Source: Streptomyces spinoverrucosus (GTDB lineage Bacteria > Actinomycetota > Actinomycetes > Streptomycetales > Streptomycetaceae). From it: a stretch of 64,000 nt of DNA. Positions 2,608 through 10,624 of this stretch are shown here, piece after piece (position 1 is the first letter of the stretch; every line of letters starts with the position of its first letter). The stretch lies in assembly GCF_015712165.1 (NCBI RefSeq), contig NZ_JADPZX010000001.1:5592001-5656000 (forward strand), in the 5' to 3' direction. The notes beneath the pieces are model-generated. The model was not told the DNA's origin and did no database searches. It was given only the letters and a program-made list of their open reading frames with translations. A program made the translations under genes and the position numbers.

Positions 2608-3206
2608 CTACGGGGGCTCCAGCGCCAGTCCGGTCTCGGCGATAAATCCGTCGAGTACTTCGGGTCGGCGTTGGATGCTGCGTAAGCGGTTCTTCACGAG
2701 CGGGGTGAGGTCTTCGACCGCGTGGGGTGCGAGGTTGGCCAGGGACTTCTTCAGATGCGCCCAGACCCCTTCGACGGGGTTGAGATCGGGCGCGTAGGGC
2801 GGCAGCTTGACGACGGTGAGCCAGTCGCTGTTTCGGTCACAGAACTCCCGCAGGACTTTGGCGTGGCGGGTGCTGGCGTTGTCCCAGATTAGGATCAGTG
2901 GGGCACCGCCGAGCTGGCGACGTGTGGTGGTGATCAGTTCGGCGAACTCGCGAGCACGGAAGCCCTTCTTCTCGCCCGTGCGGCCTCGGTACGTTTGCGT
3001 CCGGTAGATCAGACGGGTCTCGCGGCGCGGCCTGACGCAGACCATCCCGGCCATCAGGACCCGGCCCGAGCCCTTCCCGGTCACCTTGATCACCGGAGTC
3101 CGCCCGCGCCGTGACCAGGTCCGGCCCTTCCCGGGCTTCAGGTCCTGCCCTGCCTCGTCCTCGAAGACTATCCACGCGCCCAGGAGCTGGGCCGTCCTCT
3201 TACCCG
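2608..3206 (-). CDS. IS630 transposase, DDE catalytic part (orfB)
   Basis: This is the catalytic half of the transposase, read on the minus strand. It contains the first acidic region GAWIVFEDEAG, the second LILIWDNAS, and the third PPYAPDLNPVEGVWAHLKK, which together give the D-D-E triad and the typical IS630 YAPDLNPVE signature. There is no convincing start of its own near the overlap. The frame continues from orfA by a -1 shift near 3199-3209 (codons around WSRV to KRTAQ). Whether the shift is programmed or an inactivating mutation cannot be decided here. Confidence 0.8.
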
Positions 3207-3671
3207 TGACCACTGCTCCGTCCGCCACGCGGCGACGGCCTGTTCGTCCCGCTCGGCCGCCCGGTGCACGGGCACCTGCGGCGACCAGCCCAGCCGGTGC
3301 AGCAGATACGACACTCCACGCGGGGTGTACGGGTAGCCGAAAAGGCGGTGGATCAGCTCCGCCACCCTCGCAAGGGTCCACCGCTGGTCCTCGCTCCAGC
3401 CGTGCGCGGCCGGGCCGGCCTCCAGCTCGACCTGCAGCCGCTCCGCCTGGTCATCACTGATCTGACACGGAAAGCCGCCGGCTCCCCTGGACACCAGAGC
3501 CGATCCACCGCCCCGACACCAGGCGGCGTGCCAGGCGTACGCCGACTTCCGCGACACCCGTAACCTGCGGGCCACCTCCGGCGGCCGCACCCCCTGCTCG
3601 AACATGTCCGCGGCCTGCAAGCGCACCGCCTCGCGCTTCGCCCGCCCCGCAGCGGTCGCCGCCATCCGCAT
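3168..3671 (-). CDS. IS630 transposase, HTH part (orfA)
   Basis: This 167-residue N-terminal half has a helix-turn-helix (FEQGVRPPEVARRLRVSRKS) and a second winged-helix region ending LIHRLFGYPYTPRGVSYLLH, for binding the terminal repeats. The frame ends shortly after the point where the DDE frame takes over (AAWRTEQWSRV), so a -1 frameshift would give one transposase of about 360 aa. The start at 3671 lies about 60 bp inside the right end of the element. Confidence 0.78.
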   Translation of the reverse strand: MRMAATAAGRAKREAVRLQAADMFEQGVRPPEVARRLRVSRKSAYAWHAAWCRGGGSALVSRGAGGFPCQISDDQAERLQVELEAGPAAHGWSEDQRWTLARVAELIHRLFGYPYTPRGVSYLLHRLGWSPQVPVHRAAERDEQAVAAWRTEQWSRVRGRPSSWARG

Positions 3672-4038: not shown

Positions 4039-5379
4039 TCAGGTGACCAGCGACGGTGGTGCGATCGTCCGTGCTCGGTCGTACAGGTCGCTGGCCGTCG
4101 CGTTCTTCAGATGGGGGCGCAGGAGGCCGAACATAGCCTTCACGCGGTCGTCGGCGCGGCCGGACTGCACCTTGGGGTAGTCGTCGAGGGCCTGGTGCCA
4201 GGTGGCACACGCCGCTTCCAGGTGGCCGAGTTGCAACTGCCGCTCGGCCAGCAGCCCGCGCCGGTGTACGCGTGTGCGCTGGTACGCGCTGGGGCGGAGC
4301 CGGTCGGCTTGTTGCATGGCTTCGACGGCTCCGGCCTTGTCACCGAGTTCGTAACGCACCTGGCTGACGTGGTAGTTGAGCGAAGAGGGGTCATACGAGC
4401 CGAATGCCTTTCCGCGTGACTCGGCACGGTCCATGGCCGCCTCGGCCTCCCGGATGCAGCGCAGCGCTCCCGTACGGTCGCCGGTCTGCGCGGCGGCGTG
4501 CGCCTGCTGGCCGACGAGGAAGGCCCGCATCCGGGGCCCGGCTTTCGGGGAAGCCGCGGCAGCGGCATCGGCCAACTCCATAGCCTTCGCCCCGTGACGG
4601 AGGTCGACCGCCTGGACGCTCATGCCCCGCAGGGTGGTGCAGTACGTCAGGTGGTCCTCGGCAGCGCCAGCCAGCTCCAGAGCCTTGACGTAGTAGCGCT
4701 GCGCGAGACCGTGCAGCCCTTCGTCCACGGCCATGTAGCCGGTCAAGTAGAGCAGGTCCGAGGCGGCGGACAGCATCGCCTTGCGTACGTCCTCGGGTGC
4801 GTCGGCACGCAGGTAGGAGGCCACGGTGTTGACCATGAACGAGGCCGCCATGGGGCGGGCGTGGCGGCCGCCGAACTCGTCGTCCAGCTCCGAGAGACGC
4901 TCGGTCATGGCGACGACCATGTCCACTTCGTTCATGCCGATGCGGGTCGTGCGGCCAGACTGGACGGCGTCGGCACGCCCGACCACATCAGGCCAGCCGG
5001 GAATGGTGACGGCCACGGAGAACAGGCCGGCACCCAGGACACTGCGGCGGGACGGGTCCATATCCAGCCTCCCCAGGTCGATCACCCCTTCCACGGTATC
5101 CGCAGCCGCGGAGGAGCGATCGCGTGGAACCGGCAGCCCGGCCTCGGCATGGGTGACGGGGCGGCCGAGGCGGCGGGAGAGAGCTTCGAGGATGCATCCG
5201 CGCACCGCGCCGCGAGGGACGGTGCCTCCGAGCCAGTGGCTCACTGCCGACTCGTCGTAGCGCAGGGGGATTCCGGTCTCGGTGCCGACGCGGTTCACCG
5301 CCCGCGCGAACTGGTGGTGAGTCCAGCGGCTCTCGGTGAGCAGGCGCCCGAGCGCCACGTTCGGTTCACGCTTGGCCAT
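4039..5379 (-). CDS. HTH/TPR-repeat transcriptional regulator
   Basis: This 446-aa protein has an N-terminal XRE-like DNA-binding region (LGRLLTESRWTHHQFARAVN to DESAVSHWLGGTVPRG). A twin-arginine-like stretch, DPSRRSVLGAG, follows, then from about residue 150 a long helical array of TPR-like repeats (LYLTGYMAVDEGLHGLAQRY, AQTGDRTGALRCIREAEAAM and others). Streptomyces encodes many such peptide- or metabolite-sensing regulators. It is divergent from the small-gene operon starting at 5529 and shares a 150-bp intergenic region with it, so it probably controls that operon. The ligand is unknown. Confidence 0.75.
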   Translation of the reverse strand: MAKREPNVALGRLLTESRWTHHQFARAVNRVGTETGIPLRYDESAVSHWLGGTVPRGAVRGCILEALSRRLGRPVTHAEAGLPVPRDRSSAAADTVEGVIDLGRLDMDPSRRSVLGAGLFSVAVTIPGWPDVVGRADAVQSGRTTRIGMNEVDMVVAMTERLSELDDEFGGRHARPMAASFMVNTVASYLRADAPEDVRKAMLSAASDLLYLTGYMAVDEGLHGLAQRYYVKALELAGAAEDHLTYCTTLRGMSVQAVDLRHGAKAMELADAAAAASPKAGPRMRAFLVGQQAHAAAQTGDRTGALRCIREAEAAMDRAESRGKAFGSYDPSSLNYHVSQVRYELGDKAGAVEAMQQADRLRPSAYQRTRVHRRGLLAERQLQLGHLEAACATWHQALDDYPKVQSGRADDRVKAMFGLLRPHLKNATASDLYDRARTIAPPSLVT

Positions 5380-5528
5380 GCCATCAACTCCCCGTGACCT
5401 TGCGAACTTTCAAGGCTTTCAAGTCCTGGCGCTGCGGCAACGGTACCGCTGAGCGTGGTCGTGCGGTTGCGTAGAGGCAGCAGGCAACGGCGAGTCCTCG
5501 CCGCAGCCGTCGTCTGAAGGGCTGAGGG

Positions 5529-5756
5529 ATGAGAAGCGAAGCACGGGCCCGTCTGGCCCGGATGACCGAGGAGCGGGGCATGGACGGGGTGTTGAGGATC
5601 GACACCTACGAGGGCGCGGACCTGCCGCCGGGTTCGAACCGGTTCTCGCCGTGTCTCTGCCCGCAGCACGGCAGTGCCACGCCCGAGTACGGCGCGGAGA
5701 AGCTGAGCGTCGCAGTACGCGAGGCCAACCAGCGCAGCCGCGGAGAGCGGCTGTGA
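5529..5756 (+). CDS. Small conserved-looking protein with CLCP motif
   Basis: A 75-aa protein preceded by a purine-rich GCTGAGGG site just before ATG 5529. The sequence has DGVLRIDTYEGADLPPGSN followed by FSPCLCPQHG, a closely spaced cysteine/histidine cluster that could bind metal. I recall similar short proteins beside HTH/TPR regulators in Streptomyces but cannot name a family. It is the first gene of the putative peptide operon and overlaps the next gene by 4 bp (GTGA), which implies translational coupling. Confidence 0.6.
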   Translation: MRSEARARLARMTEERGMDGVLRIDTYEGADLPPGSNRFSPCLCPQHGSATPEYGAEKLSVAVREANQRSRGERL

Positions 5757-5866
5757 ACCGGTTAGCCGCAGCCGTCGGCCGTTACGCCGGACCGCTCCTG
5801 ATCATCACCATCTCGGTATCGGTCGGCTTCGTCCTGGGCGTGGCCGCCGCATCCCCACCCACCTGA
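5753..5866 (+). CDS. Tiny single-pass membrane protein
   Basis: A 37-aa peptide starts at GTG 5753, overlapping the previous stop. After the basic start MNRLAAAVGRYAG comes one hydrophobic helix (PLLIITISVSVGFVLGVAAA), ending SPPT. It is likely coupled to the 75-aa protein. Function is unknown; within a peptide-producing locus it could help export or membrane anchoring, but this is only inference from position. Confidence 0.5.
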   Translation: MNRLAAAVGRYAGPLLIITISVSVGFVLGVAAASPPT

Positions 5867-6036
5867 CTCCTCCCCGTCACGCATCCAGGCTCCCCACCTG
5901 TGACGAGGGAGGGCCCGCCGCCGGATGCGGTGGGCACCCCGCCCGGCTGCCTTCTTCGCAAGGGTCCGGCAGCCGGACGGGTCCAACTCCGCAGCATCCG
6001 CTGCGAAGTCCACTGAAAACCGTAAGGGAGAAAACG

Positions 6037-6156
6037 ATGAATGTGGACGAGCTGTTCACCGGCGACCTGACCACTGGCGTCCCGGCCGTCGAGGCCACGC
6101 TGCTCGACAAGATGCCGGGCGGTGGCGACAACAACGGCGACCACTGCAGCAAGTGA
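6037..6156 (+). CDS. RiPP-like precursor peptide (39 aa)
   Basis: ATG 6037 follows a strong ribosome site, AAGGGAG, at 7-nt spacing. The 39-residue product begins with an acidic leader-like part, MNVDELFTGDLTTGVP then AVEATLLDK. It ends in a compositionally distinct tail, MPGGGDNNGDHCSK, rich in Gly, Asp and Asn with a single Cys. It sits directly before an asparagine-synthase-like enzyme and a methyltransferase, enzyme types found in peptide-modification pathways. A perfect 15-bp hairpin separates it from them, a common way to make precursor transcript exceed enzyme transcript. It lacks the leader signature and the B-type protease of lasso peptides. The peptide role is inference from size, layout and context. 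Confidence 0.6.
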   Translation: MNVDELFTGDLTTGVPAVEATLLDKMPGGGDNNGDHCSK

Positions 6157-6172
6157 TCCAGGGCTGACGCCA

Positions 6173-6206
6173 GGCGGGGCGGGGCCGTACGCGGCCCCGC
6201 CCCGCC
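6173..6206 (+). terminator. Perfect 15-bp hairpin (attenuator/terminator) after the precursor gene
   Basis: GGCGGGGCGGGGCCG (6173-6187) pairs without mismatch with CGGCCCCGCCCCGCC (6192-6206) around the 4-nt loop TACG. It starts 17 bp after the precursor stop and ends 23 bp before the next start. Its strength suggests partial termination or RNA 3'-end protection inside the operon. Confidence 0.75.
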
Positions 6207-6229
6207 GCACGACACCGGAAAGGGACGAC

Positions 6230-7702
6230 ATGCTGTCGATGCGTCTGCGCCTGGCCGATCTCCAGGAGCCCAAGTGGAGATCGCAGGGCGGCCGTTGGAC
6301 CAACGGCGAGAGCTGGATCGAGCCCGTAAACGTGTCCACGTTGGTCACGGAGGTCAGCGACGGCCAGGCACCACGCGTACGGGTCCGCGTGAAGGAGTGC
6401 AAGCGGGACGAGGCCGACTACGTCGAACTCACCATGGAGCCCGGACAAGCCCGCCTGGCGGCGGGCGCCTTCGGCACAGCCCCGCTCTATCTGACAGAAA
6501 AGGCCGGCGAGCTGCACGCCTCGTGGGACCTGACACTGCTGCGGCCGCATCTGCGGGCCGACCGTCTGGTGCCGCGCGTTGTCGCCCGAACGCTGACGAG
6601 GCAGCACCGCTACACGTCCGAGACGCTTTTCGAAGGCGTCTACCGCCTCACCGAACGGGCAGCGGCCACGTTTACTCCTTCGGGACTCAGCATCCACTAC
6701 CCCGACCCCGCCGAACACGTACTTGAGCCACGTACCCTGCGGCCCGGCGTTGATCCACTCATGGCTCTCGACGAGTTGTTGGCCGAGGTGATTCACCAGG
6801 CGCCGACGGCATCCGGATGCGTGGGCGTCGAACTGTCCGGCGGCGCGGACTCCGGGAACGTCGCCCTGGCCGTGAAGGCGGCCCGTTTTCCCGAGGTGTA
6901 CAGCTTCGGCCTGCTGGTGGGAGGAAGCACCGGCAGGCAGCAGTGCGAGCGGCGTCGGATCCTTGTGGAGCACTGTGGCTTCCGGGACACGGCCATCTCC
7001 GCCATGCAGCATCCACCCTTCTGCGCTGGAGGCGTGCGCGATCTGTGCAAGCCGCATGACCCGGCGGGAGCGTTCTATCAGGAGGCGTTCGATGTCGTGC
7101 GCGAGCAGGCAGCCGCCCAGCGGTGCGAGGTCATGTTCACCGGCAGCGGCGGCGACGAGATCAACGCCCACCACTCCAGGACACAGGCAGAACTGCCGAC
7201 ACCCGAACCCGTACCATGGCTCGGAGTCAAGGCAGCCCGAGCACTCGCCGAGGTGAACGAGCATCTGGCACCCATCCCGGTACTGCCCGTACCGACCCTG
7301 ATGGCGTTCGGGATGCACAACCCCGGATTCCTCCGGGCCGGAATCTGGCCAGTGAGCCCGCTGGTGCACCCGCGGATTGTGCGGTTCATGGAGCAACTGC
7401 CGCGCGAGCACAAGCGCGGCAAGGCGCTGTTCCGCGACCGGATCAGACGGGCCGGGGTACCCGAGTGGGTGGCCGCGCCGGCCGAACCGGAGAACTTCCT
7501 GGCCGTTCTGGAAAAGGGCCTGCGTTCCTACGGTTTGCCCGTACTGGATGACATGCTGAAAGAGTCCATCCTGGTGGACCTCGGCTACGTTGATGGGAAG
7601 GCTCTCGCCAAGGCGCGGAGGGACGCCGACGCTGCGCCGGTCGTCCCCGACCTGCTGTGCGATGTGCTCGCCCTGGAGGTCGGACTGCGAAGCCTCATGT
7701 GA
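6230..7702 (+). CDS. Asparagine-synthase-like amidotransferase/ligase
   Basis: This 490-aa protein is predicted to activate a carboxylate by adenylation for amide or amidine formation. The C-terminal synthase domain has the PP-loop ATP-binding motif SGGADS (residues about 203-208) and a second loop, FTGSGGDEINAHH. The N-terminal 190 residues resemble a degenerate glutaminase fold: the protein starts MLSM and lacks the catalytic Cys2, so it may not use glutamine. Lasso-peptide cyclases share this layout. ATG 6230 is chosen from the AAAGGGA site just upstream. The stop overlaps the methyltransferase start. The likely substrate, by position, is the 39-aa peptide. Confidence 0.75.
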   Translation: MLSMRLRLADLQEPKWRSQGGRWTNGESWIEPVNVSTLVTEVSDGQAPRVRVRVKECKRDEADYVELTMEPGQARLAAGAFGTAPLYLTEKAGELHASWDLTLLRPHLRADRLVPRVVARTLTRQHRYTSETLFEGVYRLTERAAATFTPSGLSIHYPDPAEHVLEPRTLRPGVDPLMALDELLAEVIHQAPTASGCVGVELSGGADSGNVALAVKAARFPEVYSFGLLVGGSTGRQQCERRRILVEHCGFRDTAISAMQHPPFCAGGVRDLCKPHDPAGAFYQEAFDVVREQAAAQRCEVMFTGSGGDEINAHHSRTQAELPTPEPVPWLGVKAARALAEVNEHLAPIPVLPVPTLMAFGMHNPGFLRAGIWPVSPLVHPRIVRFMEQLPREHKRGKALFRDRIRRAGVPEWVAAPAEPENFLAVLEKGLRSYGLPVLDDMLKESILVDLGYVDGKALAKARRDADAAPVVPDLLCDVLALEVGLRSLM

Positions 7703-8445
7703 CCAGCCCCGACACGGAAGCCGAGCACGTGGAAGCCACCAACCTCCTGTACCGCGATCCGGCACTCTACGACGTGGTCCAGTCCGACAGCACGAGCGCC
7801 GGAATGTGCCAAACCCTGATCGAGCGGCACAGGCCGGATGCCCGGACCCTGGTCGACTTCGGATGCGGTACCGGGCGAGACCTGGAGATCTTGGCCAAGC
7901 GCTTCGAGTGCATCGGCGTGGACCTCCAGCCCGGCATGGTCGACTACGCCCACCAGGCCCGGCCGGGGCTGGACATCCGCACCGGCGACATGCGCACCGT
8001 GCGACTCGGCAGCCGCATGGACGTGGTGACCTGTATGGGCAACAGCCTCGCCTACGTGCACGACAACGAGGCGATCAGCCAGGTCTTCGCCACCTTCGCC
8101 GCCCACGCCCGGCCAGGAGCGCTCCTCGTGCTGTGTTCCCCCGTCGCCCCGATCACCCGGACCGAGCCGACCACCGCCACGGTCGACACCCCGACGGGCC
8201 CCGCGACCGTCACCATCCGCCACACGTGGGACCTGCGGACCCAGATCAACACCATGCACCGGCACTGGAGTCTCCCCTCGGGCGACGAGGCCCGAGACGA
8301 GATCCGCAGACGCGTCCTGTACCCCCGCGAACTGGAACGCTATGCGGAGGGCGCCGGCTTCGAGGTCCTGGACATGCTCGACGGCACAGGGACAGGGCTT
8401 ACCGGCCCCACCGCATACACGGTGGCCCGACAAACTCCGCGGTGA
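7699..8445 (+). CDS. SAM-dependent class I methyltransferase
   Basis: This 248-aa protein starts at GTG 7699, overlapping the synthase stop. Motif I, LVDFGCGTGRDLEIL, and the acidic residue ending the next strand (CIGVDLQPGMV) define the SAM pocket, followed by VTCMGNSLAYV and a C-terminal substrate-binding half. It resembles the small-molecule/peptide methyltransferases of glycine-sarcosine/UbiE type. Coupling to the synthase suggests it modifies the same product. Core-repeat copy 3 begins 45 bp after its stop, so the locus ends here. Confidence 0.78.
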   Translation: MTSPDTEAEHVEATNLLYRDPALYDVVQSDSTSAGMCQTLIERHRPDARTLVDFGCGTGRDLEILAKRFECIGVDLQPGMVDYAHQARPGLDIRTGDMRTVRLGSRMDVVTCMGNSLAYVHDNEAISQVFATFAAHARPGALLVLCSPVAPITRTEPTTATVDTPTGPATVTIRHTWDLRTQINTMHRHWSLPSGDEARDEIRRRVLYPRELERYAEGAGFEVLDMLDGTGTGLTGPTAYTVARQTPR

Positions 8446-8489: not shown

Positions 8490-8660
8490 CTGACGGCAGT
8501 AGCGACGGCAACAACCACGGATTTCCCCGCACAACGACGGACACCAGCGGAACGCAAATCACGTGCTGACCTGCAAAGAAGCAGGTAGAGCGGGTCCGCG
8601 CAGCACACGTACTATGTGCTGGCAGGCGCCACCACACCGGTACTCGTTCACAACTGCAAT
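8490..8660 (+). repeat. Core repeat and toxin-cassette leader, copy 3
   Basis: This has the same parts as the 967 copy: TGACGGCAGTAG (8491-8502), CGACGGCAAC, a run with GACGGACACC, then the inverted repeat GACCTGC (8568-8574)/GCAGGT (8581-8586) with a 6-nt A-rich loop. It then enters the HTYYVLAG...LVHNCN coding tail. An in-frame TAG (8586-8588), 10 codons before the toxin GTG, again prevents fusion to upstream sequence. The two leaders differ by small substitutions and a short insertion, so they are related but not recent duplicates. Confidence 0.8.
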
Positions 8661-9083
8661 GTTGGTGATATCGCTGACGGGCTTCCGGCGCGCGCGAGTG
8701 GTGACCCCGCGGTCGGGCAGGTCGTGAATATCGGCGACTCGGGCGCGTCCAGGGTGGGGGCTCCGTTCAAGAGCGGGCACTCTTCCTCTTCGGATGACAT
8801 CAACCAGTTCCTGATGGATTCACCGGACATAGCGAATCCGGCGAGTGGGCCCCATGCGTCAATCACTCACGTGGAGACCAAGCTTGCTTGGCGTATGCGA
8901 CAAGCTGGCGTAACGTCACTAGATGTCGTGATCAACCATTCTGGCGGACCTTGCACGGGAAGGTTCTCGTGCTCGTCAGCGGTCCCGGCGATCCTTCCCC
9001 AAGGTTCGAGCATGACGGTCTGGTTCAGAGGCGCAGCGGGTAGCGTGCAGAGCGTCACGCTCCATGGCCGGGCGCGGGGATGA
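8616..9083 (+). CDS. Second orphan toxin module, DddA/SCP1.201-like deaminase
   Basis: A 155-residue frame beginning inside the pre-toxin tail (LAGATTPVLVHNC). The deaminase core is recognisable: THVETKLAWRMR gives the catalytic H85 and E87, followed by LDVVINHSGGPC. Zinc ligands are C113 and C119 (PCTGRFSC), then AVPAILPQGSSMTVWF. This spacing of the PC...C pair fits the SCP1.201/DddA class better than the first cassette does. As there, no delivery domain precedes it. The next gene, 18 bp downstream, encodes an Imm1-like protein, the immunity type I associate with this toxin group. Confidence 0.78.
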   Translation: MLAGATTPVLVHNCNVGDIADGLPARASGDPAVGQVVNIGDSGASRVGAPFKSGHSSSSDDINQFLMDSPDIANPASGPHASITHVETKLAWRMRQAGVTSLDVVINHSGGPCTGRFSCSSAVPAILPQGSSMTVWFRGAAGSVQSVTLHGRARG

Positions 9084-9101: not shown

Positions 9102-9659
9102 GTGTTTCTGAGCGTATTTTTCAAGGGCGAGTGGCGCTACGCCGAGAGTCCGGTCGAGACGTCACGGCTTGTCGTCGAAGTCATGGAGGGCTTGCAGGGG
9201 GAAGAGGAGGCTGAAGGCTCCTACTATCCCGGCGAAGATGCCTGGTTCTGCATTGCTGATCGACGGCATAGCGAAACCGACCCGGTGGCGGCGAGCAATC
9301 TGCGCGTGGCCATCAATCGACGCCATGGGTATGGGGCTCTGGTCTGGTTCGTTGATGAGAAATTCCCTAAAGGGGGAGGGGTTTATGATTCTGTTTGGAT
9401 TTCCGATAATCCCGAACCTCTTGATTTCGATCCACGCGTTGTGTCGGATCCTGGGTATCCGCTCTTCCATGACCCGACCAGCACTCTGCCGGTCTCCCGA
9501 ATTCAGGCTGCGGTGGAGGAATTCTGTCGACTGCGTTCGGGGAATCGACCTGAGTGCATCAACTGGGTTGCCGGTCACATGAACGGGCAGCGCCTCGACC
9601 GGCCGTCCGTGGTCGAGGTCGTCGAGGATCCAGAAATCGACTGGGACAGCCTCCGATAG
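9102..9659 (+). CDS. Imm1-family immunity protein
   Basis: This 185-aa protein starts at GTG 9102 after a GAGGGG site. It opens with FFKGEWRYAESPVE, then a central YGALVWFVDEKF and VYDSVWISDN, and ends with ECINWVAGHMNGQRLD, which matches my memory of the Imm1 pattern in Streptomyces. Imm1 proteins neutralise deaminase toxins, so it should protect against the preceding gene product in the cytoplasm. Codon usage is less G+C-rich in its middle part, as in the first cassette. Core repeats or IS remnants flank the gene pair on both sides. Confidence 0.8.
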   Translation: MFLSVFFKGEWRYAESPVETSRLVVEVMEGLQGEEEAEGSYYPGEDAWFCIADRRHSETDPVAASNLRVAINRRHGYGALVWFVDEKFPKGGGVYDSVWISDNPEPLDFDPRVVSDPGYPLFHDPTSTLPVSRIQAAVEEFCRLRSGNRPECINWVAGHMNGQRLDRPSVVEVVEDPEIDWDSLR

Positions 9660-9734: not shown

Positions 9735-9790
9735 CGCTGAGGTTGAAAGGGCAGGGTGACGGCGGGCGTTGGCGGTGCTACATCCTCGTC
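9735..9790 (+). mobile_element. 56-bp remnant of the IS630 element end
   Basis: This stretch equals, base for base, the reverse complement of the IS right end at 3679-3734: terminal repeat plus the start of the upstream region of orfA. Beyond 9790 the match stops abruptly. The base pairs just outside the terminus read CTGA, like the TTGA beside the full element, so both insertions used the same kind of site. Only one end remains; the rest was deleted. Confidence 0.85.
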
Positions 9791-9984
9791 GGGTCGTTGC
9801 CGTCGTCGCTGGTCGGCTCCTGGCCGGCAGGACCGTCGAGCCCGGTGCTGCGGGTGTCGATGGCGTCGCGCTGGAGGCGGAGTCGGACATGGGCGTAGAC
9901 GGTGGCTGTGACGCCGGTGGGGGCGTGGCCGAGGAGTTCCTTGATCACGCTCGCGGCGGCGAATCCTCGTGTCAGCAGGTGGGA
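9778..9984 (-). pseudogene. C-terminal fragment of a tyrosine recombinase (integrase)
   Basis: Read on the minus strand, this frame encodes ASVIKELLGHAPTGVTATVY then AHVRLRLQRDAID, the C-terminal signature of actinophage/ICE tyrosine integrases, with the catalytic LLGH histidine and the VYAH tyrosine. There is no catalytic domain upstream of it. The last codons (TRM, stop) come from the IS remnant, showing that the insertion cut the gene's 3' end. It is the only trace of the enzyme that may have built this island. Confidence 0.75.
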
Positions 9985-10060
9985 GCGCCCGTATGCTGGC
10001 CACGTACCGCCTGCTGAGGTCACACCGAGACTTGCCGGTCGGACGAGGAGGTGAAAGGGC

Positions 10061-10624
10061 ATGAGCGTTGCCATTGACCACACCGGGCCCTGGACCGTAG
10101 CCGATGTCCTGGCCCTGCCCGAAGACCGCACGATCCGCTACGAGCTGCTGGGGGAGTCGCTCGTGATGTCCCCCGCACCTGGCGTCCGTCACCAGCGGGC
10201 CTCTTTCCGCCTCCACGTCGCCCTGGACGCGGCCGCTCGGGCCGTCGGCGCGCCGGTGGAGATCCTGGAGGGCGTCAACGTCGTCCTGCCGTCCGGACTG
10301 GTCGTGCCCGACCTGGTCGTGGCCGACGCCGGCGCGACTGCCGAGGACCCCGCCACCGTCGACATCGACGCGGTCCAGCTTGTCGTCGAACTCGTCTCCC
10401 CCGGCAACCGCACCATGGACCGCAAGGTCAAGCCCATGCTGTACGCGGAGGCCGCCGTCCCGCGCTTCTGGCGCGTGGAGTTCGACCCGGCCCCGATGCT
10501 CGCCGTCTACGAACTGGAAGGCGGCCGGTACGTGGAGCGGGCGACCGCACTCGCGGGCGCGACCACCAACCTGGACGCCCCGTTCCCCGTTGCGATCGAC
10601 CCGGCTGGACTCACCCGGCAGTAG
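10061..10624 (+). CDS. Uma2-family (DUF820) nuclease-fold protein
   Basis: This 187-aa protein follows a GGAGGTGA ribosome site. Uma2 proteins have a PD-(D/E)XK-type nuclease fold. Here YELLGESLVMSPAP opens the domain, SGLVVPDLVVAD supplies the acidic PD motif, and VQLVVELVSPGNRTMDRKVK supplies the ExxS/K part. Such genes are numerous in Streptomyces and often sit on mobile islands; their physiological role is unknown. Core-repeat copy 4 begins 2 bp after its stop. Confidence 0.85.
   Translation: MSVAIDHTGPWTVADVLALPEDRTIRYELLGESLVMSPAPGVRHQRASFRLHVALDAAARAVGAPVEILEGVNVVLPSGLVVPDLVVADAGATAEDPATVDIDAVQLVVELVSPGNRTMDRKVKPMLYAEAAVPRFWRVEFDPAPMLAVYELEGGRYVERATALAGATTNLDAPFPVAIDPAGLTRQ

Follow-up and report, generated by a model that had tools for sequence, protein, structure and literature searches.

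A short Lys-x5-Asp precursor beside an AsnB-type ligase: a candidate peptide-stapling family in Streptomyces and Proteobacteria

A precursor and ligase cluster in Streptomyces

We analysed a 64,000-nucleotide stretch of the Streptomyces spinoverrucosus chromosome (contig NZ_JADPZX010000001.1, positions 5,592,001 to 5,656,000; hereafter the window) that contains, at window positions 4039–8445, a compact cluster in which the gene for a 39-residue peptide lies upstream of genes for an AsnB-type ligase (the synthase) and a methyltransferase (Table 1), the latter two overlapping through GTGA. A preliminary description of this DNA listed a divergent helix-turn-helix (HTH) and tetratricopeptide repeat (TPR) regulator, a coupled pair of small proteins, the peptide, a hairpin and the synthase–methyltransferase pair; every part is present in the sequence and its open reading frames (ORFs). 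Its reading of these genes as a precursor with an AsnB-type enzyme and a methyltransferase is supported by conservation of the peptide beside the synthase, and we are highly confident that the peptide is a precursor of the RiPP type (ribosomally synthesised and post-translationally modified peptide) encoded together with its ligase.

Table 1. Features of the cluster, with positions in the window (aa, amino acids; SAM, S-adenosylmethionine).
Feature	Position	Strand	Basis
Divergent NsdA-family HTH/TPR-like regulator, 446 aa	4039..5379	-	NF053720, 458.8 bits (cut-off 75)
75-aa protein with CLCPQH stretch	5529..5756	+	ORF; no family match
37-aa protein, GTG start	5753..5866	+	ORF; 4-nt overlap with the 75-aa gene
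39-aa precursor peptide	6037..6156	+	Conservation, tblastn, Lys-x5-Asp
15-bp perfect hairpin, loop TACG	6173..6206	+	Between precursor and synthase genes; read from sequence
AsnB-type ligase, 490 aa, proposed Lys-Asp cyclase	6230..7702	+	PF00733, 30.7 bits (cut-off 21); AlphaFold2 model; alignments
Class I SAM methyltransferase, 248 aa, proposed amine N-methyltransferase	7699..8445	+	PF13649, 51.8 bits; model, fold matches

The precursor consists of a leader of approximately residues 1–23 and a conserved core, DKMPGGGDNNGDHC, at residues 24–37; the proposed ring residues are Lys25 (codon 6109–6111) and Asp31 (codon 6127–6129). When 392 Streptomyces genomes were scanned with the synthase, 43 matched at E ≤ 1e-10, and 20 of these encode a full-length synthase with 63–100% identity (12 close to that of the window and 8 in a second clade). 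The peptide is present in all 20 (E ≤ 0.01), one copy (G382) being frameshifted and lying in two frames, and in none of the seven genomes having only incomplete or interrupted close synthases (59–89% identity; G085, G093, G167, G198, G285, G338 and G361), some of whose contigs may be cut by assembly. One genome (G006) has the peptide without the synthase, and there the tail is altered and truncated and the regulator is broken. In a set of 60 loci searched by tblastn, which includes the window itself (L001) and several genomes reached twice, the peptide adjoins the synthase in 47 and the tail is identical in all 47; in L014 and L041 the tail is present but in a shifted frame, and no recognisable precursor was seen in L067, where the synthase is interrupted. 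Members of the second clade have a synthase only about 65% identical and a different regulator protein, yet the tail DKMPGGGDNNGDHCS is unchanged.

The leader and the tail are conserved differently, a check that the preliminary description had proposed: the tail DKMPGGGDNNGDHC is almost invariant and the leader varies. In 27 distinct DNA versions, amino acid changes affect 13 of 22 leader positions and synonymous changes affect 5 of 15 tail codons, although these versions were selected on the tail and its invariance rests instead on the tblastn search and on a scan with the leader only. The tail had originally been delimited as MPGGGDNNGDHCSK; its strong conservation holds, but the conserved extent is DKMPGGGDNNGDHC, as the residues after the Cys vary in database relatives (SK, S, KTA, QTTA and IK, and K in P0169), where we also found single changes within the tail (KMPRGGD, and one deleted Gly). 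The leader-only scan retrieved 40 distinct ORFs, 34 of which contain Lys and Asp separated by five residues (Lys-x5-Asp). The six without it are the frameshifted precursor of L014/L041, four second-clade ORFs that sit 569–656 nt upstream in loci also holding a real precursor, and one unrelated Rhizobium ORF. The leader pattern was unmatched in 35 loci, including edge-cut or deleted loci, intact but missed precursors (L019, L020, L031) and the L077–L089 group, in which the leader reads VQ.PA. In L019 (7109–7255) the leader segment GDLIT is tandemly triplicated.

The Lys-x5-Asp rule in distant relatives

Homologous loci devoid of a precursor-like gene would count against such a pathway, as had been pointed out at the start. 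The full-length close homologues all retain the peptide, and each of 12 distant Streptomyces loci (L069–L080; synthase identity 31–42%) has upstream a short peptide with a different core and the same Lys–Asp spacing (e.g. ...YTKKQGSSDTQTETDDI, ...REKPQESSDQGRFED, ...YKKTSGSSDGAKTYDTTAT and ...ETKKFSGNSDTNTERDEHE), the core in L076 being without an in-frame leader. The search for these cores was filtered on the motif; the separate scan described above was filtered on the leader only. When the phylum was scanned with the window synthase, 2 of 396 genomes gave a match and both were Streptomyces; we therefore took members from outside this genus from a plasmid collection, in which 47 records matched and 15 of these were examined. 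They include two further Streptomyces loci and a series of proteobacterial loci with synthases 25–31% identical to that of the window. The associated peptides are ...PKRRLPGDSATLTYL... in Mesorhizobium, ...PKVRLPGDSATLMYYL in M. amorphae, ...PKGPFPSDSANEGYL and ...EKAPFPNDSANQGYL in Bradyrhizobium, ...MKPYLGDDSRWY... in Xanthomonas sacchari and ...IKGGKPGDMDKLDV in five Rhizobium copies; the copy in L127 is frameshifted. In Xanthomonas, Mesorhizobium L116 and Rhizobium the peptide gene is annotated and lies immediately upstream of the synthase.

Lys-x5-Asp is present in 11 of 11 family representatives even though their leaders and cores differ, and the best of the other combinations of residue pair and spacing is found in 7 of 11. 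With shuffled tails the motif occurred in at most 7 of 11 over 2000 trials, and when 45 residue pairs at 11 spacings were considered over 150 shuffles, none exceeded 8 of 11. Among small ORFs of the same loci the motif is found in 36 of 2148 and 15 of 404, with the precursors counted in. A profile search with a 12-row precursor alignment returned 58 proteins at E ≤ 10; where NCBI or JGI has assigned a name, it is "hypothetical protein". The Lys is retained in 57 of the 58, the Asp in 55, the leader Phe in all, the leader Pro in 54 and Lys-x5-Asp in 54; the four misses are evident frameshifts (P0173 and P0177), a changed stretch (P0171) and the deleted Gly noted above (P0169, giving Lys-x4-Asp). 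Because the motif was built into the profile and several queries are themselves among the hits, we regard this set as supporting rather than independent. The pathway is part of a wider family that reaches into the Proteobacteria.

The ligase and a proposed Lys–Asp side-chain bond

The AlphaFold2 model of the window synthase matches the folds of beta-lactam synthetase, carbapenam synthetase and AsnB. The first two enzymes carry out ATP-driven intramolecular amide formation and share with the synthase an AsnB fold with an inactive glutaminase half, but they act on small molecules and are only 14–19% identical over the aligned part. Profile matches in the PDB are weak, the best being beta-lactam synthetase (E 0.0025), and a PDB search with the single synthase sequence gave nothing useful. 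The N-terminal Met-Cys that would supply the glutaminase Cys is present in none of 98 synthases, and the score against the asparagine synthetase model TIGR01536 (37.2 bits versus a cut-off of 267.1) does not place the enzyme among glutamine-hydrolysing types. No natural fusion of synthase and precursor was recognised among the fetched synthases; P0042, which resembles a partial synthase–methyltransferase fusion, was left out of the evidence.

The methyltransferase is associated with the two clades whose peptides have the DHC end; a search of about 1.5 kb around the distant synthases L054–L057, L059 and L060 did not reveal it. Its model (predicted local distance difference test score, pLDDT, 87.4) is closest to the aminosugar N-methyltransferases (TylM1, DesVI, CalS10), and the RiPP methyltransferases CypM and CgnL are also among the matches (17–29% identity across these five); we therefore propose that it may methylate an amine. 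Other family members encode a GNAT acetyltransferase (L078 and L116, both exceeding the cut-off, and L072, which falls short of it) or an ABC transporter (L113, from its Pfam match, and L114, as annotated). A daptide assignment was dropped (daptide methyltransferase NF041820, 33.5 bits versus a cut-off of 175), as were aspartimide and sugar-tailoring readings.

We propose that the cluster would direct synthesis of a RiPP in which the precursor is recognised through its leader (the F..VP region), the ligase spends ATP to activate the Asp31 side chain, and nucleophilic attack by the Lys25 side-chain amine gives a macrolactam over the seven residues KMPGGGD. With a Lys side chain as the nucleophile in place of a newly cleaved N-terminus, the reaction would not need a lasso-type B protein. 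The methyltransferase would then N-methylate an amine, perhaps the His in the DHC end or an N-terminus that a protease has exposed, with leader removal as a further presumed step, and in Streptomyces the product would probably act back on the nearby HTH/TPR regulator. On balance we favour the Lys–Asp side-chain bond as the best-supported chemistry, ahead of a lasso-like ring, another use of the activated Asp and a peptide that is not a substrate. The preliminary description had the enzymes amidating, cyclising or cross-linking the tail; cross-linking seems likely and amidation less so, because the residue pair that distant relatives have in common with this peptide is Lys25 and Asp31. It had also pointed to the absence of a B protein, an ATP-grasp enzyme, a LanM-like enzyme and a YxxP leader. 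None of these enzymes is found among the six cluster proteins (NCBIfam, Pfam), and the leader contains neither YxxP nor any Tyr. A Lys-to-acidic side-chain amide made with the leader attached would resemble those of graspetides (omega-ester-containing peptides; PMC13097080), and the conservation of Lys-x5-Asp is compatible with a side-chain-to-side-chain ester or amide; unlike those systems, the ligase here is AsnB-type and no ATP-grasp match is found in the cluster.

Several observations weigh against the Lys–Asp bond. The position of the lysine in the lasso-cyclase TKD motif is Pro in the window synthase and Arg in several relatives, and in the alignment Lys is seen there only in Mesorhizobium, Xanthomonas and Bradyrhizobium; the active site may therefore differ. 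An amine-type methyltransferase implies a free amine, perhaps a cut N-terminus, and no protease is known at the locus. The precursors assigned in Bradyrhizobium and M. amorphae are ORFs without annotation, picked with the motif in mind among several upstream ORFs, the L069–L080 cores came through a motif filter, and the 58 relatives come from a motif-holding profile and include several of its queries. Finally, the chemistry is a prediction, and Lys-x5-Asp also fits a lasso-like ring if a protease cuts just before the Lys.

This last arrangement, a divergent lasso or an unthreaded lariat in which a protease from another locus cleaves ahead of the core and the alpha-amine so released joins Asp31 or Asp35, seems to us improbable. 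The rings would contain seven residues (K25–D31) or eight (G28–D35), within the seven to nine usual for lasso peptides, and lasso systems (C with B1/B2 or B; NF033535, NF033561, NF033537) likewise pair a short precursor with an AsnB-type ligase without glutaminase function and form a macrolactam through an Asp side chain, as is probable here. Some family members are distantly related to lasso cyclase models (L116, NF033561 39.5 bits, cut-off 300), and lasso B1 and B2 proteins exist elsewhere in the source genome. However, neither a B protein nor YxxP is present locally: no B1 (a PqqD-like RiPP recognition element) or B2 protease is among the six cluster proteins, and the only matches in the genome (E ≤ 0.001) lie 3.36 Mb away. 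An invariant Lys as residue one is unusual for lasso peptides, and here this Lys is the probable nucleophile. In addition, the second Asp lies 4 to 6 residues past the first in relatives, such that the Asp35 distance is not fixed, the core plus its end is only 12–15 residues long, and the window synthase has no BLASTP similarity to the lasso cyclase of its own genome (E 0.39). The synthase also falls far short of the curated lasso cyclase model (NF033535, 11.8 bits versus a cut-off of 525), but the cut-off alone is a weak test, because the true lasso cyclase of the genome is also below its own (NF033561, 248 bits, cut-off 300). The 39-residue peptide has no NCBIfam match, and the lasso precursor of this genome matches NF033521 (27.7 bits, cut-off 19). 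A complete lasso cluster with precursor, cyclase, B1 and B2 is located at about 2.24 Mb in the same genome (L129, 7811–10589).

Somewhat less probable still is activation of Asp31 without a bond to Lys, leading to amidation to Asn, hydroxyamidation, an aspartimide or attack by another nucleophile, with Lys25 serving recognition; the glutaminase Cys is missing from all of the synthases compared, and the invariance of the Lys, equal to that of the Asp and at a fixed spacing, would be left unexplained. Least likely is a ligase acting on a small molecule, as many AsnB relatives do, with the short ORF encoding a regulatory or accessory peptide such as an unmodified ligand of the TPR regulator: of the 11 Streptomyces loci tested, 9 have an NsdA-family regulator nearby, but Lys-x5-Asp also tracks the synthase in proteobacterial loci that have no annotated regulator of this kind alongside, the peptide is retained while regulators, methyltransferase, GNAT and transporter vary, and within the core the strongest constraint is on Lys and Asp.

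Regulatory context and genomic setting

The nine regulators exceeding the NsdA-family cut-off, that of the window included, lie within about 5 kb of the synthase, and L077 and L079 have other HTH proteins instead. This count is not blind, since the ten regulators from outside the window were chosen as the nearest regulator-like ORF at up to about 5 kb; chance proximity is nonetheless unlikely, as the source genome has only 14 NsdA-family genes over the cut-off in 8.85 Mb. The nearby NsdA-type regulator suggests possible autoregulation or signalling. In four of five Rhizobium records (L122, L123, L126, L128) the peptide gene is immediately preceded, in the same orientation, by an acyl-homoserine lactone (AHL) synthase gene, and in the fifth (L117) an AHL synthase gene is about 2.4 kb away on the opposite strand. 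The Streptomyces and Rhizobium gene contexts both fit a putative signalling role. In Rhizobium johnstonii 3841 pRL10 (L126, 1146–5326) the AHL synthase gene, a 52-aa Lys-x5-Asp peptide and an AsnB-like gene annotated shorter than its relatives immediately precede nifH and nifD. RRNPP-type quorum sensing (PMC10075063) likewise pairs a short peptide gene with an adjacent gene for an HTH and TPR-like regulator, although here the receptor is of the NsdA family and not classical, the peptide is proposed to be enzymatically cyclised, and sensing is putative.

A more tentative proposal, which we consider possible but rather doubtful as a whole, is that these loci represent an undescribed RiPP class across Actinomycetota and Proteobacteria, in which relatives of lasso cyclases free of a B protein staple a Lys to an Asp six residues on, the Streptomyces product being a signal read by the nearby NsdA-family TPR receptor and the Rhizobium version lying directly behind an AHL synthase on symbiosis plasmids. 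The AsnB-type ligases known to act on ribosomal peptides are lasso cyclases, which operate together with a leader peptidase. We found no description of an AsnB-type ligase with a Lys–Asp precursor in the open-licence literature, subscription papers being outside this scope. If the proposal is correct, a family consisting of only precursor and ligase would be a compact biocatalyst for peptide stapling, and the role of Streptomyces NsdA-type TPR regulators would become directly testable. The F..VP leader with a Lys-x5-Asp core would then provide a genome-mining motif for genes now named hypothetical protein.

A GC-rich stem between the peptide and synthase genes is kept in both clades with differing sequence (16 sequences). 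Of its 13 main-stem pairs, 4 carry compensatory changes and 3 are disrupted by a mismatch or a gap in one or more sequences; no T-run is apparent by eye. We suggest that the stem may be a partial terminator or an RNA stabiliser holding the level of precursor above that of the enzyme. Upstream, the 75-aa ORF has tblastn matches (64–100% identity) in most loci with an intact 5' part and is annotated as a 58-aa version in NZ_CP108010; the 37-aa ORF, matched at 68–94% identity in most first-clade loci, probably encodes one membrane helix, as judged by eye. In the second clade (L062, 6267–6392) an unrelated 41-aa membrane-like ORF replaces it upstream of the peptide.

Outside the cluster block, few ORFs of the window are shared with the 30 loci compared, the commonest being integrase-like (named by eye; 10 of 31 sources). 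One cluster copy is on a conjugative plasmid of Streptomyces sp. NBC_00334, flanked by integrase and transposase genes, and we infer that the cluster is a mobile cassette. In L027, L043 and L068 the regulator and synthase are truncated at their facing ends and the small genes and peptide region are gone, a pattern that suggests recurrent internal deletion. At window positions 9778–10131 (minus strand) an ORF without a Pfam match resembles by eye the C-terminal end of a tyrosine recombinase, with similar ORFs near the cluster in 10 of 31 sources, and beyond the regulator two overlapping ORFs (3168–3671 and 2608–3381, minus strand) resemble by eye the two halves of an IS630-type transposase. Short ORFs at 1093–1527 and 8616–9083 match the DddA-like deaminase family PF14428 (43.4 and 71.1 bits respectively), and the start of each (LVHNC) resembles the final part of a larger secreted protein. 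Behind the second lies an Imm1-like immunity gene (9102–9659; PF14430, 35.5 bits), and the two ORFs look like orphan polymorphic-toxin cassettes on either side of the cluster.

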